Of a stretch of DNA of 38,770 nucleotides, positions 29,246 to 33,056 are shown in pieces. Below the pieces are notes generated by a model, which saw only the letters and a program-made list of their open reading frames with translations, made no database searches and was not told where the DNA came from. Origin of the DNA: a virus. The DNA lies in the IMG/VR virus record IMGVR_UViG_3300030385_001802, positions 1-38,770 of that record; one strand, given 5' to 3'. A program made the translations under genes and the position numbers. The stretch's first letter is position 1. Every line of letters begins with the position of its first letter.

Positions 29246-29598
29246 GTTGCTTCTCCTTTTTCAATTTTTCGCGTTAACTTCAAAACCTTTTTCATCGCCC
29301 TACTTTCAAGAAGGTTGATGTGCTTAATGAGGCTTTTAACTTTTCTATGCAGGTGCCTATTTTCACGGGTTAGCTCTTGAACCTTATTGTTGGATGACTC
29401 TGCGCGTTTCATATTTTTGTCAGCATTCAATGCGTTTACCACCAACTCTTGGAAGGTAAATAATTCCAACATCAGCGCGTCTGAATTAGGAATAATAAGG
29501 TTGCGTAACCCAGCCTCATGCTCCCTTAATTGCTCATGCACCTTGAAATACTTTTCCTTCCAAGCGGCGTAGTCCTTTTTATTTAACCTCGGCATCAC
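29242..29598 (-). CDS. Coiled-coil hypothetical protein
   Basis: This 118-residue, highly charged protein is mostly helical (VQELTRENRHLHRKVKSLIK; KKVLKLTRKIEKGEAT) with leucines at heptad spacing. Its DNA is visibly richer in A and T than the flanking genes. Stop and start overlap the neighbours by 4 bases each, so it is translated within the early operon. A similar short coiled-coil gene lies at 31191-31517. Both may be recent insertions. No known domain is recognised; dimerisation is likely. Confidence 0.55.
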   Translation of the reverse strand: MMPRLNKKDYAAWKEKYFKVHEQLREHEAGLRNLIIPNSDALMLELFTFQELVVNALNADKNMKRAESSNNKVQELTRENRHLHRKVKSLIKHINLLESRAMKKVLKLTRKIEKGEAT

Positions 29599-30476
29599 GC
29601 CGCCCCCTTGAGATCAATCTCTCTGGGGTTGGTGTGCTTGAAGGCGTAGGGCGGTAGGGATAACAGCACCTTCTCGGCGGCATAGCCGTGGAAATGCTGT
29701 TTCTCCTCGCATTCAAGATGCAGGTCGATGGCGGCGTTGTAGGATGCCCATCCTTCGGCCCGTGTTTGTGCGTCGAGTTCGTAGATGGCTGGTGCGTATG
29801 GCGGTGACTTCTCTATGACAAGGAACAGGAAGGTATCCCTTGGCGCGACCCTCAATTCCGGGTTTTTTCTTTCCTGTCGGTTCGCGATCTCAACCCAATT
29901 TAGATGTGACGCCTCGTAAGCCGCGTTCCATCCATAGGTGTACGATGCCGCCTGTTGATGATAGCCGTAATTGGCAACGGATTGCGCGAAGCCGCGAGGG
30001 CTCGCATCTGCTGCTGTTTTCAGGTCGATTAGAACGTCCTTGGCGCAATCCATTTTAAGTTTGCATTGCTGTCCGCGGTACTCGAAAAACGCTGCCTGTT
30101 CGTATATCGCACCACCACCACCCAGGATCGATGCGATGGCAGGACTCTGCCATACCCTATCCCTCATGGTCATGCAGGTATGATAGTCACCTTCAGTTAG
30201 CAGGATGACGCCCGCGGCGTCGGCCTCTTCGATGGCTTCCTTCCATGCTTTCCCACGGCGATCCTTTGGACCCTGCTTTATACCCTTGTCGGCGAGTTCC
30301 GGCTGAAGGACAGCAAGATGGACGGCGCTGCCCAGCGTCATGGCGTCGGTCTTTTCGGTCTGTACCTGCGCGTGGGCCGGTGTTTTGTTGATGAGGCGCC
30401 AAAGGTAAGAATTGTTGAGCCCGTCAGCCGCGAAATACTCGGCATCGGGCATGTCGAAGACACCGATCTTCATCAT
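29595..30476 (-). CDS. RecE-like PD-(D/E)XK exonuclease
   Basis: This 293-residue protein resembles the exodeoxyribonuclease VIII/RecE-type nuclease domain (DUF3799 family). It opens with DMPDAEYFAADGLNNSYLWR and TLGSAVHLAVLQPELADKG. The catalytic core follows: the acidic position in QQCKLKMDCAKDVLIDLKTA (the D-x(n)-D-L-K motif) and the downstream QAASYTYGWNAAYE motif. Such enzymes chew one strand to give 3' tails for annealing or recombination. It lies downstream of DUF6378 and RuvC-like genes, making a compact recombination cassette. Confidence 0.88.
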   Translation of the reverse strand: MMKIGVFDMPDAEYFAADGLNNSYLWRLINKTPAHAQVQTEKTDAMTLGSAVHLAVLQPELADKGIKQGPKDRRGKAWKEAIEEADAAGVILLTEGDYHTCMTMRDRVWQSPAIASILGGGGAIYEQAAFFEYRGQQCKLKMDCAKDVLIDLKTAADASPRGFAQSVANYGYHQQAASYTYGWNAAYEASHLNWVEIANRQERKNPELRVAPRDTFLFLVIEKSPPYAPAIYELDAQTRAEGWASYNAAIDLHLECEEKQHFHGYAAEKVLLSLPPYAFKHTNPREIDLKGAA

Positions 30477-30748
30477 GCCACCTCACTGAGGATGGCAGCG
30501 TAGCCGGCGAGATCGATCTGGCTATCGGCGTGATCGGGCTGATTTATGAGACGCGCCAGCTTGATACCGCACATAACCATGACGGCGTCAGCCGGGCTGA
30601 TGTCATACTCCAGCTTATCCCTGAGAATCACGTTCATCATTGCCGCCACCCGGTCATAGTTCTCGGCGGGTGAGCCGTACATATTTTCCCTGTTTGTAAC
30701 GGCAGCGCGCGCACCGTTAAGAATTTCAAAGCGCGGTTTGTCTTTCAT
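30473..30748 (-). CDS. DUF6378-like small protein
   Basis: I start at ATG 30748 (91 residues, AGGGGA upstream), which overlaps the resolvase stop (ATGA). The protein has the signature of DUF6378-type phage proteins: AAVTNRENMYGSPAENYDRV, then ISPADAVMVMCGIKLARLIN and DSQIDLAGYAAIL. The similarity extends over the whole length. It is helical and resembles small MazG-like nucleotide-handling folds, but a pyrophosphatase motif is not visible. It lies between the resolvase and the exonuclease. Function unknown. Confidence 0.75.
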   Translation of the reverse strand: MKDKPRFEILNGARAAVTNRENMYGSPAENYDRVAAMMNVILRDKLEYDISPADAVMVMCGIKLARLINQPDHADSQIDLAGYAAILSEVA

Positions 30749-31194
30749 CTGATAATCCCCTGTGATCTGCCCCAAAGGGCGATAAGTGCCGCTTCTGCGC
30801 GGCCGTCGTCTTTCTTACGCAAGAACTGGTCTGCGTTGGCAGGGAAGAGCCGTGTCGCAGCTTCCCTTGCCGCGTTCTTGTCCCGTCCCAGGTTATAGTG
30901 GCTTTTCCACTTCGCCGGAGTGACAAGCGTGAACGGGATAGCCAATGTTGCGAGAACACCTTTTATGACACCAAAGCCCTGCCCGAAATTGAAGGCGGAT
31001 TGCCGGCCCATGAGGTGGCTGTTGACGCTCTCCAGGTAGACATGATCCGGGACGAACTCTGTGAAAATGGCCGCGATCGCGGCGCCGTTGAGTTCTTTGT
31101 CGAAGACCGGCATATCCTCAATGAAGAGATGGCTGGATACCGGATAAAGCATGGCGATGGCGCCGGTCTTGCCGGGGTCAATGGCGGCGATCAT
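30745..31194 (-). CDS. RuvC-like Holliday junction resolvase
   Basis: This 149-residue protein has the RuvC fold: IAAIDPGKTGAIAM with catalytic D6, VYLESVNSHLMG with E55, TPAKWKSHYNL in the middle and a C-terminal acidic pair within KKDDGRAEAALIALWG. RuvC-like proteins of phages cut four-way junctions or branched DNA before packaging. Length is typical. Start ATG 31194 overlaps the previous stop by 4 bases. Confidence 0.92.
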   Translation of the reverse strand: MIAAIDPGKTGAIAMLYPVSSHLFIEDMPVFDKELNGAAIAAIFTEFVPDHVYLESVNSHLMGRQSAFNFGQGFGVIKGVLATLAIPFTLVTPAKWKSHYNLGRDKNAAREAATRLFPANADQFLRKKDDGRAEAALIALWGRSQGIIR

Positions 31195-31517: not shown

Positions 31518-31765
31518 TTCCCGTCCTTCAATTTCAGCAGCGCGTAATACTCCTTGCGCCGCATGGCGATGGTGGGTGTCATGCCCAGGCTGTCGTTATG
31601 CTCTGCCATGTCGAGGGCATATCGCGCCGCCCTGATCTCTTCGTCTGTGGGTTTCCTGGGGCCGAATATGCTGTCCCACCCATCCCTGTATGCTTTGGTC
31701 GGGATGGGGATCGTCCACCAGCGTTTGCGCTGTTGGCTGGGTGATTTGCTGTGGATGTCAATCAT
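31514..31765 (-). CDS. Small hypothetical early protein
   Basis: This 83-residue protein begins MIDIHSKSPSQQRKRWWTIP and has KAYRDGWDSIFGPRKPTDEE, then a basic/helical end (MRRKEYYALLKLKDGK). It starts immediately at the methyltransferase stop (TGATG overlap) and overlaps the next gene by 4 bases, so it is translated with them. Several Trp and Arg could bind nucleic acid, but no family is recognised. Confidence 0.6.
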   Translation of the reverse strand: MIDIHSKSPSQQRKRWWTIPIPTKAYRDGWDSIFGPRKPTDEEIRAARYALDMAEHNDSLGMTPTIAMRRKEYYALLKLKDGK

Positions 31766-32864
31766 CAGACTTTCTCCGCTGCGAGGATTCCCCGTCCGAT
31801 TTGCTCGACGACCTGGGGGACGATTGCGTTTCCGAGGGCTTTGAGTCGGGCGACGCGGTTTTTAACTCCGGTCGCAACTCTTCCGCAGTCAGGTTCGTCC
31901 AGCCAGCGGGGAACCCCATCAGCCATTCCACCCATTCTGGATTCAGGGAGCCACTGCTGTGGCCCTCCATCTTCACTGCGTTGGGTAGCTGGTCGTGATG
32001 CCCTCGCGCTTTCGCCAGATGCTCGTCGCTGTTTGCGCCCTTGTGATCCCTCGTTGTCGGCGTGGGCCACATCTTGGCCGCCGTTTGTAGGTTGAAACTT
32101 TCCTTGTGACCACTGGGCCTCTTCCCCGTGAAATTTGGGGTTGCCCCCCGTGGTGTTGCGTCCGGCGTCGGCCACAGTTTCGCCACCATTCCCAGATCGA
32201 TATTCTTCCCCCGCGCCAATTCCCTCTCTGCGCCCGCCACTGTTCTGCTTCCCTTGTTCCCGTCCGTCGCTTTCGCGGTGGGCCAGAGATGCGGGTTGTT
32301 CACTTGTTGCGAGAGCCGCAATTGCTGGTGGGCTTTGTACTTCACTTGACCCGGATGCTCGGCCACACTGGCGGTCATTGTTTGCCACAATCCAGACCCG
32401 ATCTCTTCGGTGCGGGGCATCGACGGCGCAAGCTGGAATAATAAATGGCGCGGCTTCGTACCCGAGGCTTTCCAGGTCAGAAAGGCTGCGCTGGAGGCCC
32501 AGCGGCTCGTTAACAAAGCCTCTGACATTTTCGCCAATGACCCATTGAGGCCGTAGCTTTTCAATAAGGGTAGCCATCGCCGGCCAGAGGTCGCGGTCAT
32601 CTTCTGCGCCTCGCTGCTGCCCGGCGACACTCCAGGGCTGGCAAGGAAATCCTCCACATACGAGATCGATTCTCCCAAGTTCATCTGTCGGGATGGTTCG
32701 CACATCGTCGTAAATCGGGACGTCCGGCCAGTGCTTTCTGAGGACGGCTTGACAGAACTTGTCTTGCTCGCAGAAGGCGACTGTCCGAAAAGGTCCGGCT
32801 GTTTCGAGCCCGAGTGAGAATCCGCCGATTCCGCTGAAGAGGTCGAGGACGGTAAGGTTTTCAT
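31758..32864 (-). CDS. Full-length ORF nested in the methyltransferase gene, different frame
   Basis: This 368-residue ORF starts four bases after the methyltransferase start (ATGAATGA) and overlaps it completely in another frame on the same strand. It is not random-looking: it contains LWQTMTASVAEHPGQVKY, LWPTPDATPRGATPN, WPTPTTRDHKGAN and LNPEWVEWLMGFPAGWT. I recognise these WPTP-x-RD and WVEWLMGFP-x-GWT signatures from phage and bacterial proteins that accompany cytosine methyltransferases, often annotated as methyltransferase-associated hypothetical proteins. The Ser/Thr-rich N-terminus is unlike a normal domain. Whether it is translated is not proven; no separate Shine-Dalgarno site exists beyond the shared one. 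Confidence 0.55.
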   Translation of the reverse strand: MKTLPSSTSSAESADSHSGSKQPDLFGQSPSASKTSSVKPSSESTGRTSRFTTMCEPSRQMNLGESISYVEDFLASPGVSPGSSEAQKMTATSGRRWLPLLKSYGLNGSLAKMSEALLTSRWASSAAFLTWKASGTKPRHLLFQLAPSMPRTEEIGSGLWQTMTASVAEHPGQVKYKAHQQLRLSQQVNNPHLWPTAKATDGNKGSRTVAGAERELARGKNIDLGMVAKLWPTPDATPRGATPNFTGKRPSGHKESFNLQTAAKMWPTPTTRDHKGANSDEHLAKARGHHDQLPNAVKMEGHSSGSLNPEWVEWLMGFPAGWTNLTAEELRPELKTASPDSKPSETQSSPRSSSKSDGESSQRRKSDD

Positions 32865-32868
32865 TCAC
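31765..32868 (-). CDS. dcm: DNA (cytosine-5)-methyltransferase
   Basis: This 367-residue protein carries the cytosine-C5 methyltransferase motifs in order: motif I (LDLFSGIGGFSLGLE), motif IV with catalytic Cys (GGFPCQPWSVAGQ at about 72-84), motif VI (ENVRGFVNE), motif VIII (DAPHRRDRVWIVA) and motifs IX-X (RLKALGNAIVPQVVEQIG). The segment between, about 180-330, is the target-recognition region and is unusually Gly/Arg/Ser/Asn-rich. No partner restriction enzyme is seen, so it more likely protects phage DNA or alters regulation. It follows the ribbon-helix-helix gene with 4 bases of overlap. The target sequence cannot be read from the protein. The whole gene is also open in another frame (31758-32864). 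Confidence 0.93.
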   Translation of the reverse strand: MNENLTVLDLFSGIGGFSLGLETAGPFRTVAFCEQDKFCQAVLRKHWPDVPIYDDVRTIPTDELGRIDLVCGGFPCQPWSVAGQQRGAEDDRDLWPAMATLIEKLRPQWVIGENVRGFVNEPLGLQRSLSDLESLGYEAAPFIIPACAVDAPHRRDRVWIVANNDRQCGRASGSSEVQSPPAIAALATSEQPASLAHRESDGREQGKQNSGGRREGIGAGEEYRSGNGGETVADAGRNTTGGNPKFHGEEAQWSQGKFQPTNGGQDVAHADNEGSQGRKQRRASGESARASRPATQRSEDGGPQQWLPESRMGGMADGVPRWLDEPDCGRVATGVKNRVARLKALGNAIVPQVVEQIGRGILAAEKV

Positions 32869-33056
32869 GTTTCCCTCGCCGCCTCGACGCGGCGCTCCAG
32901 CTTATCTATCTGATCCAGTAACGGGGGCAGGTGGGCGTCCAGAGCGGCCTCGATGGCGCTTGTCATGGTCGCCGGGGTGTGAGCCGCCACAGTATGCAGG
33001 TCCACCAGCAGGTCTGTGCGTAGTCTGAGAGAGAATGGGGTGCGGGGCATCGGCAT
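32865..33056 (-). CDS. Arc-type ribbon-helix-helix DNA-binding protein
   Basis: This 63-residue protein (or 61, from the second ATG) begins MPMPRTPFSLRLRTDLLVDL, a beta-strand followed by two helices, as in Arc/CopG-like repressors, with a basic/helical C-terminus (IDKLERRVEAARET). It is the first gene of the early minus-strand operon, 35-40 bases behind the strong promoter at 33098-33126. This makes it a good candidate for autoregulation or control of the opposite plus-strand promoter. The methyltransferase start overlaps its stop. Confidence 0.7.
   Translation of the reverse strand: MPMPRTPFSLRLRTDLLVDLHTVAAHTPATMTSAIEAALDAHLPPLLDQIDKLERRVEAARET

Follow-up and report, generated by a model that had tools for sequence, protein, structure and literature searches.

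Two overlapping frames of one phage gene as the probable subunits of a C5-cytosine DNA methyltransferase

Two nearly coextensive reading frames of a single phage gene, alpha and beta, are both open, conserved and selected, and we propose, with a probability of about 0.86, that they encode the two subunits of one C5-cytosine DNA methyltransferase, in which beta would carry the target-recognition region (TRD) and motif IX. The original prediction, made from the letters of the DNA, had noticed the overlap and suggested two genes in one sequence, a suggestion that stands: the beta homologues have open frames, and their substitution patterns indicate purifying selection. To identify this second protein with the TRD/motif IX portion of one and the same enzyme, for which M.EcoHK31I offers a precedent, goes beyond that prediction and is the most likely interpretation.

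Results

The locus

The window, that is, the whole stretch of DNA analysed (38,770 nt, a 38.8-kb virus record), carries alpha and beta on its minus strand:

31765..32868, minus strand: alpha, putative C5-cytosine methyltransferase large subunit, 367 aa, GTG start; motifs I-VIII and X; matches to PF00145, phrog_363 and M.HhaI
31758..32864, minus strand: beta, candidate TRD and motif IX subunit, 368 aa, ATG start, +1 frame relative to alpha; phrog_1008 match and conserved family alignments
32873..32877, minus strand: GAGGG, possible Shine-Dalgarno sequence shared by both, 4 nt before the alpha GTG and 8 nt before the beta ATG (sequence)

The two frames overlap over 1,100 nt, out of 1,104 nt of alpha and 1,107 nt of beta, with offsets of 4 nt between the starts and 7 nt between the ends; the same-strand ORFs of 367 and 368 residues first described are thereby confirmed. 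The start context reads GAGGG-AAAC-GTGA-ATG, with the beta ATG directly after the TGA of an upstream 63-aa ORF of unknown function (32865-33056, minus strand). Because this stop overlaps the alpha GTG (GTGA), translational coupling of the 63-aa ORF and alpha is suggested. Neighbouring genes on the same strand (29595-31194) code for an exonuclease VIII-like protein (phrog_412), a protein of the phosphofructokinase-labelled phrog_474 and a RuvC-like Holliday junction resolvase (phrog_1770). No restriction enzyme was recognised among the ORFs scanned.

Motifs of alpha and beta

Alpha matches PF00145 (E 1.3e-45) and phrog_363 (E 1.2e-78), and among solved enzymes its match to M.HhaI is limited to motifs I-VIII (residues 5-162). 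Motifs I, IV (PCQ), VI (ENV), VIII and X of C5-cytosine DNA methyltransferases were all found in alpha by sequence:

32821..32850, minus strand: motif I, VLDLFSGIGG (SAM binding)
32629..32655, minus strand: motif IV, GGFPCQPWS (catalytic Cys)
32515..32535, minus strand: motif VI, GENVRGF
32383..32412, minus strand: motif VIII, HRRDRVWIVA
31954..32376, minus strand: Gly/Arg-rich stretch, residues 165-305, its composition explained by beta (shuffles and fourfold divergence)
31813..31845, minus strand: motif X, LKALGNAIVPQ, C-terminal

Between motifs VIII and X, alpha is Gly/Arg-rich, varies in length and has no motif IX. The view that this ORF has all the cytosine-5 methyltransferase motifs is therefore to be corrected, since motif IX and a recognisable TRD are absent from the alpha frame and both are present in beta; a PF00145-type enzyme with motif IX and a TRD is found in the alpha-beta pair only, not in one polypeptide.

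Beta matches phrog_1008 (E 3.4e-33) over positions 9-289 of the 329 of the profile, that is, over most of the protein. Pfam and NCBIfam models gave no match to beta, nor did a profile search of the PDB. Its parts are the following, with the WPTPTTRD and the LNPEWVEWLMGFPAGWT that had been claimed for the second frame both found:

32403..32483, minus strand: conserved N-terminal block FLTWKASGTKPRHLLFQLAPSMPRTEE, overlapping alpha up to motif VIII and partly a shadow of alpha (family alignment)
31947..32393, minus strand: putative TRD with repeat units (family alignment); the units recur in single-ORF actinophage enzymes, in frame with motif IX
32367-32393, minus strand: TRD unit GLWQT (family alignment)
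32250-32291, minus strand: TRD unit HLWPTAKATDGNKG (family alignment)
32145-32180, minus strand: TRD unit KLWPTPDATPRG (family alignment)
32037-32075, minus strand: TRD unit KMWPTPTTRDHKG (family alignment)
31896..31946, minus strand: motif IX, LNPEWVEWLMGFPAGWT, invariant or nearly so across 90 relatives

Homologue searches led to 330 loci in phages, metagenomic viruses and bacterial genomes from many phyla, so that independent homologues of the second frame, which the original prediction had proposed to count, number in the hundreds. Beta is a real protein family: its alignment consists of the conserved N-terminal block, WPTP-type units in varying number and a nearly invariant LNPEWVEWLMGFPxGWT, and all 332 beta segments sit in the +1 frame of an alpha (332/332). 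In AT-rich loci, the beta frame is filled with stops until about 160-180 nt into alpha and is then open until 60-90 nt before the alpha stop. Upstream of motif VIII, the conservation of beta is partly a shadow of alpha motifs. A QLTLF at the N-terminus of beta, considered as a sliding-clamp motif, was rejected for such a function because LTLFAGDS mirrors, in the +1 frame, alpha motif IV (V)DLIAGGFPC. Modelled alone by AlphaFold, beta is of low confidence (pLDDT 63, pTM 0.28), and a fold search with this model returned one weak row (Z 4.0).

Relatives with other frame arrangements

In PFR1 (a Propionibacterium phage) and Babsiella (a Mycobacterium phage), one ORF carries the motifs up to VIII, LLPTPTARD-type units, motif IX in the form FVEWMMGLP or FPEWMMGWP, and motif X. 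These enzymes resemble the window beta in their LLPTPTARD-type repeats, in the FVEWMMGLP motif IX and in matching phrog_1008 (PFR1 residues 185-342, Babsiella 426-614), but differ from the window in having motifs IX and X and the TRD, or at the least its final units, in one frame with motifs I-VIII. In EdgarPoe and Twister, two ORFs follow each other with an overlap of some tens of nt, and the second, TRD-IX-X, likewise matches phrog_1008. A model of a single-ORF relative aligned with M.HhaI over its whole length (Z 23-24), with the IX and X blocks at pLDDT mostly 88-96 (motif IX region about 90) and a TRD of low confidence. Since the TRD is of low confidence in this model as in that of beta, we treat it as a putative DNA-recognition fold. 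The actinophage counterpart of motif IX lines up weakly with M.HhaI LHPRECARVMGYPDSYK (residues 273-307); a HMMER alignment placed rlaaafpeWmmGwPagw on HhaI KLHPRECARVMGYPDSYK with a negligible score, and when the beta profile was compared with the actinophage regions, the PTP repeats were aligned (Prob 98) and motif IX was not. Because the repeats and motif IX occur in the single-ORF enzymes, phrog_1008 matches them and the model is M.HhaI-like, beta corresponds to the TRD/motif IX part of a methyltransferase.

Relative to motif VIII, and as assigned by pattern (with 273 loci unparsed), the window type has TRD and IX at +1 and X at 0, and the sequential split has all three at +1; other lineages have the TRD at +1 with IX and X at 0, a TRD that passes from +1 to 0, or all at 0. 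In the actinophage relatives L332, L335, L341 and L362-L386, the TRD units start at +1 after motif VIII and continue in frame 0 with IX and X, and the +1 part may be either translated or a relic. In L331 (1154-1807) and L339, the TRD units are at +1 with IX and X in frame 0, and the frame-0 TRD is Gly/Arg-rich as in alpha.

Translation start of beta

The window offers three candidate starts for beta, which may begin at M1 or at one of two internal methionines:

32664..32705, minus strand: alternative internal starts M54 (32705) and M61 (32684), at the position of the beta start in most relatives (sequence)

No Shine-Dalgarno sequence was found at M54 or M61 in the window, and the +4 ATG is, within the window's own clade, common only to its closest relative, L002. 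An earlier test for Shine-Dalgarno sequences across all candidate ATGs gave no enrichment; as such a test is informative only where an upstream stop constrains the start, it was restricted to the 59 loci in which the beta start is boxed in by such a stop. Of these loci, 46% have a Shine-Dalgarno sequence of at least 5 nt ahead of their first beta ATG, a feature seen at 3% of the other ATGs (P 4.5e-21; see, for example, tgacaaaggagagtttttATGAGC). Beta has its own ribosome-binding site in many relatives. A subfamily of proteobacterial phages and prophages (L171-L250 and the E. coli locus L426, including E. coli PT62) has xTGAATG starts with one Shine-Dalgarno sequence, as in the window, and by a simple pattern beta starts from the +4 ATG in 39 of 80 loci. 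Moreover, fourfold divergence at the alpha N-terminal codons of this subfamily is 0.245, against 0.468 elsewhere, a reduction that supports a full-length overlap there.

A +1 ribosomal frameshift near motif VIII, yielding a fused alpha(I-VIII)-beta(TRD-IX) protein beside or instead of free beta, would fit the position of the TRD units, which in widely differing relatives follow motif VIII immediately and in the +1 frame, as well as EdgarPoe and Twister, in which alpha ends there and the +1 ORF carries on with TRD-IX-X. We nevertheless regard a frameshift as unlikely: beta of the overlapping type stops before motif X, so that the fusion would be without X; beta has its own Shine-Dalgarno sequence and ATG in many relatives, with stops just upstream of that ATG in AT-rich loci; and no slippery site was identified. 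Even less probable, in our estimation, is that beta is translated but acts as an independent protein, for example in anti-restriction or regulation. Such a role could be accommodated by the N-terminal part of beta, which has no known fold match, and by the indirect nature of the case for an alpha-beta complex, but it is at odds with the constant company of alpha (in 332 matches beta is never away from it), with the presence of the beta repeats and motif IX in frame within single-ORF methyltransferases, and with an alpha that has no motif IX unless beta supplies it.

Selection on both frames

When the window gene was shuffled synonymously so as to preserve alpha, 23 of 2,000 shuffles had a +1 frame open over an equal length (P about 0.012, a modest value), and for most relatives 0-1 of 2,000 did; AT-rich relatives (GC 0.42-0.50) have an open beta frame that 0/2000 null shuffles reproduced. 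Because loci found via beta are biased, 26 non-redundant relatives were picked through alpha alone. The beta frame of 22 of them runs without a stop from motif IV to motif X, where 0.12 would be expected; the +2 frame has 14.7 stops on average. All 26 have motif IX in the beta frame: a pattern picks it out in 24, it reads LQGFP in L448, and in L499 it is represented by a partial YPIGWT tail. The openness of 62 of 62 beta cores was rejected as evidence, being circular (the core is defined inside a stop-free segment), and the alpha-selected set was used instead.

The ratio of third- to first-position substitutions is 2.18 in the 5' flank, 1.06 in the overlap and 2.34 in the 3' flank (109 disjoint pairs), and is lower in the overlap than in the 5' flank in 102 of the 109 pairs. 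Fourfold-site divergence was computed over 105 independent pairs, changes at alpha-fourfold sites being silent in alpha and non-silent in beta. At these alpha sites it is 0.39 in the 5' flank, 0.28 in the catalytic overlap, 0.12 in the TRD, 0.125 in motif IX and 0.55 in the 3' flank; divergence at beta-fourfold sites in the TRD is 0.385, and protein identity in the TRD is higher for beta (0.585) than for alpha (0.470). It is this pattern of fourfold divergence that shows alpha to dominate up to motif VIII and beta to dominate in the TRD and motif IX. The comparison of synonymous with non-synonymous change across relatives, which had been put forward with the overlap, thus gives purifying selection on the second frame.

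Over residues 166-305 of the window alpha, the Gly plus Arg fraction is 0.271, and the beta protein together with codon usage would by themselves give 0.272 +/- 0.016. This bears out the idea that the methyltransferase owes its Gly/Arg-rich region to the constraint from the second frame. In beta-preserving shuffles of the window gene, alpha stays open by chance in just 0.4%, so that keeping alpha open is itself selected. The G+R composition of alpha and the P+T+W composition of beta are each explained by the other frame; composition therefore gives no direction, which comes from fourfold divergence. In the window's closest pair, the catalytic block has an ordinary third-position excess, and selection on beta is thus seen at the level of the family and not in this copy alone. 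A non-coding shadow of the methyltransferase, open through GC-rich composition, agrees with the mildly unlikely open frame of the window taken alone and with the part of beta N-terminal conservation that mirrors alpha motifs, but is practically dismissed by the open frames of AT-rich relatives, the frozen alpha-fourfold sites in the TRD and motif IX, and the alpha-selected set. Of the features that the original prediction had associated with such a shadow, the confinement of full-length overlapping homologues to alpha genes is what we see (332/332), but many stops and a lack of selection are not.

Discussion

In the enzyme we propose, alpha would supply the SAM-binding and catalytic motifs (I-VIII) and motif X, and beta, encoded in the +1 frame of this DNA, would add the target-recognition region together with motif IX; by analogy with the two polypeptides of M.EcoHK31I, the chains would assemble into one complete enzyme. 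Alpha may be read across its Gly/Arg-rich middle chiefly to keep motif X attached, this middle being the presumed alpha-frame output of DNA optimised for beta. From the phage setting, the enzyme is probably a solitary methyltransferase that protects phage DNA by methylating it. We infer, for this phage, the translation of the two frames, the formation of the alpha-beta complex, its activity and target site, and its biological role.

A two-protein methyltransferase of this general kind has been known since 1995. M.EcoHK31I and M.EaeI are two-polypeptide C5 methyltransferases that recognise YGGCCR, and the small subunit of M.EcoHK31I is encoded in another frame inside the large one. As far as that arrangement goes, the window and its relatives are alike in encoding the small subunit within the large, in another frame, but the window ORFs differ in being almost coextensive. 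Of the two polypeptides of M.EcoHK31I, the large one has motifs I-VIII and X and the small one motif IX, with the predicted TRD placed in the large subunit (PMC3404938). Compared by this published description, the window likewise has I-VIII and X on the large subunit and IX on the small; in contrast, its recognition region is assigned to beta. M.AquI is split sequentially, with motifs IX and X and a portion of the variable region all on its second chain (PMC3404938). In the proposed reading, the window shares with M.AquI that two chains make one enzyme, but its motif X is in alpha and the overlap is 1,100 nt, not a sequential layout with little overlap. An M.AquI-like sequential layout is that of the actinophages EdgarPoe and Twister, not of the window. 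The phage 'DNA methyltransferase' families phrog_363 and phrog_1008 match the window alpha and beta, and the PHROG label is silent on phrog_1008 being the out-of-frame TRD/IX part. Gp55 and gp56 of the Paenibacillus larvae phage Shelly are arranged as in the window and were deposited with the note 'g55 internal gene' and no function given; this wording is absent from the 2018 paper on 48 P. larvae phages.

The window is 97-100% identical to L002 over the last third of the gene and 59% identical just before motif VIII, and against L003, L004 and L427-L429 the order is reversed, with 75-91% identity across most of the catalytic region and 34-72% within the TRD. This mosaic is the pattern expected of an exchangeable specificity segment. 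L009 (187-1955) has, behind a complete alpha1/beta1 pair, another intact beta, whose ATG overlaps the alpha1 stop (ATGA) and whose own alpha frame is without motifs I-IV and X; it is a possible second specificity subunit. WPTP units differ in number, the TRD recombines apart from the catalytic block, lineages differ in the frame at which the TRD rejoins the catalytic frame, and L009 has a second beta; we tentatively suggest, as somewhat less than an even chance, a large, deeply old phage methyltransferase family in which the specificity for DNA sequence belongs to an out-of-frame subunit, translated on its own and evolving as a cassette that can be exchanged.

That nearly the same 1.1 kb codes for two proteins, both selected across many phyla, makes a very clear example of extended overlap on one strand, in phages as in bacteria. 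Should beta be the specificity subunit, expression of the annotated methyltransferase ORF by itself, whether recoded or deprived of beta, would be unsuccessful or misleading; for hundreds of phage enzymes, beta would be the chain from which to predict recognition sites; and the single ORF, the sequential split and the full overlap would form a natural series for a domain moving out of frame. The alpha/beta family is large, and gene callers drop the second protein almost everywhere, so that it is left out of nearly all annotation. Public records, whether of phages, plasmids or E. coli, seldom annotate beta; for some P. larvae phages, two methyltransferases are listed at the same place. A prophage copy in E. 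coli PCP07014 (L425, 2500-3261), with a stop at nearly the same place in both frames, is annotated as a pseudogene.
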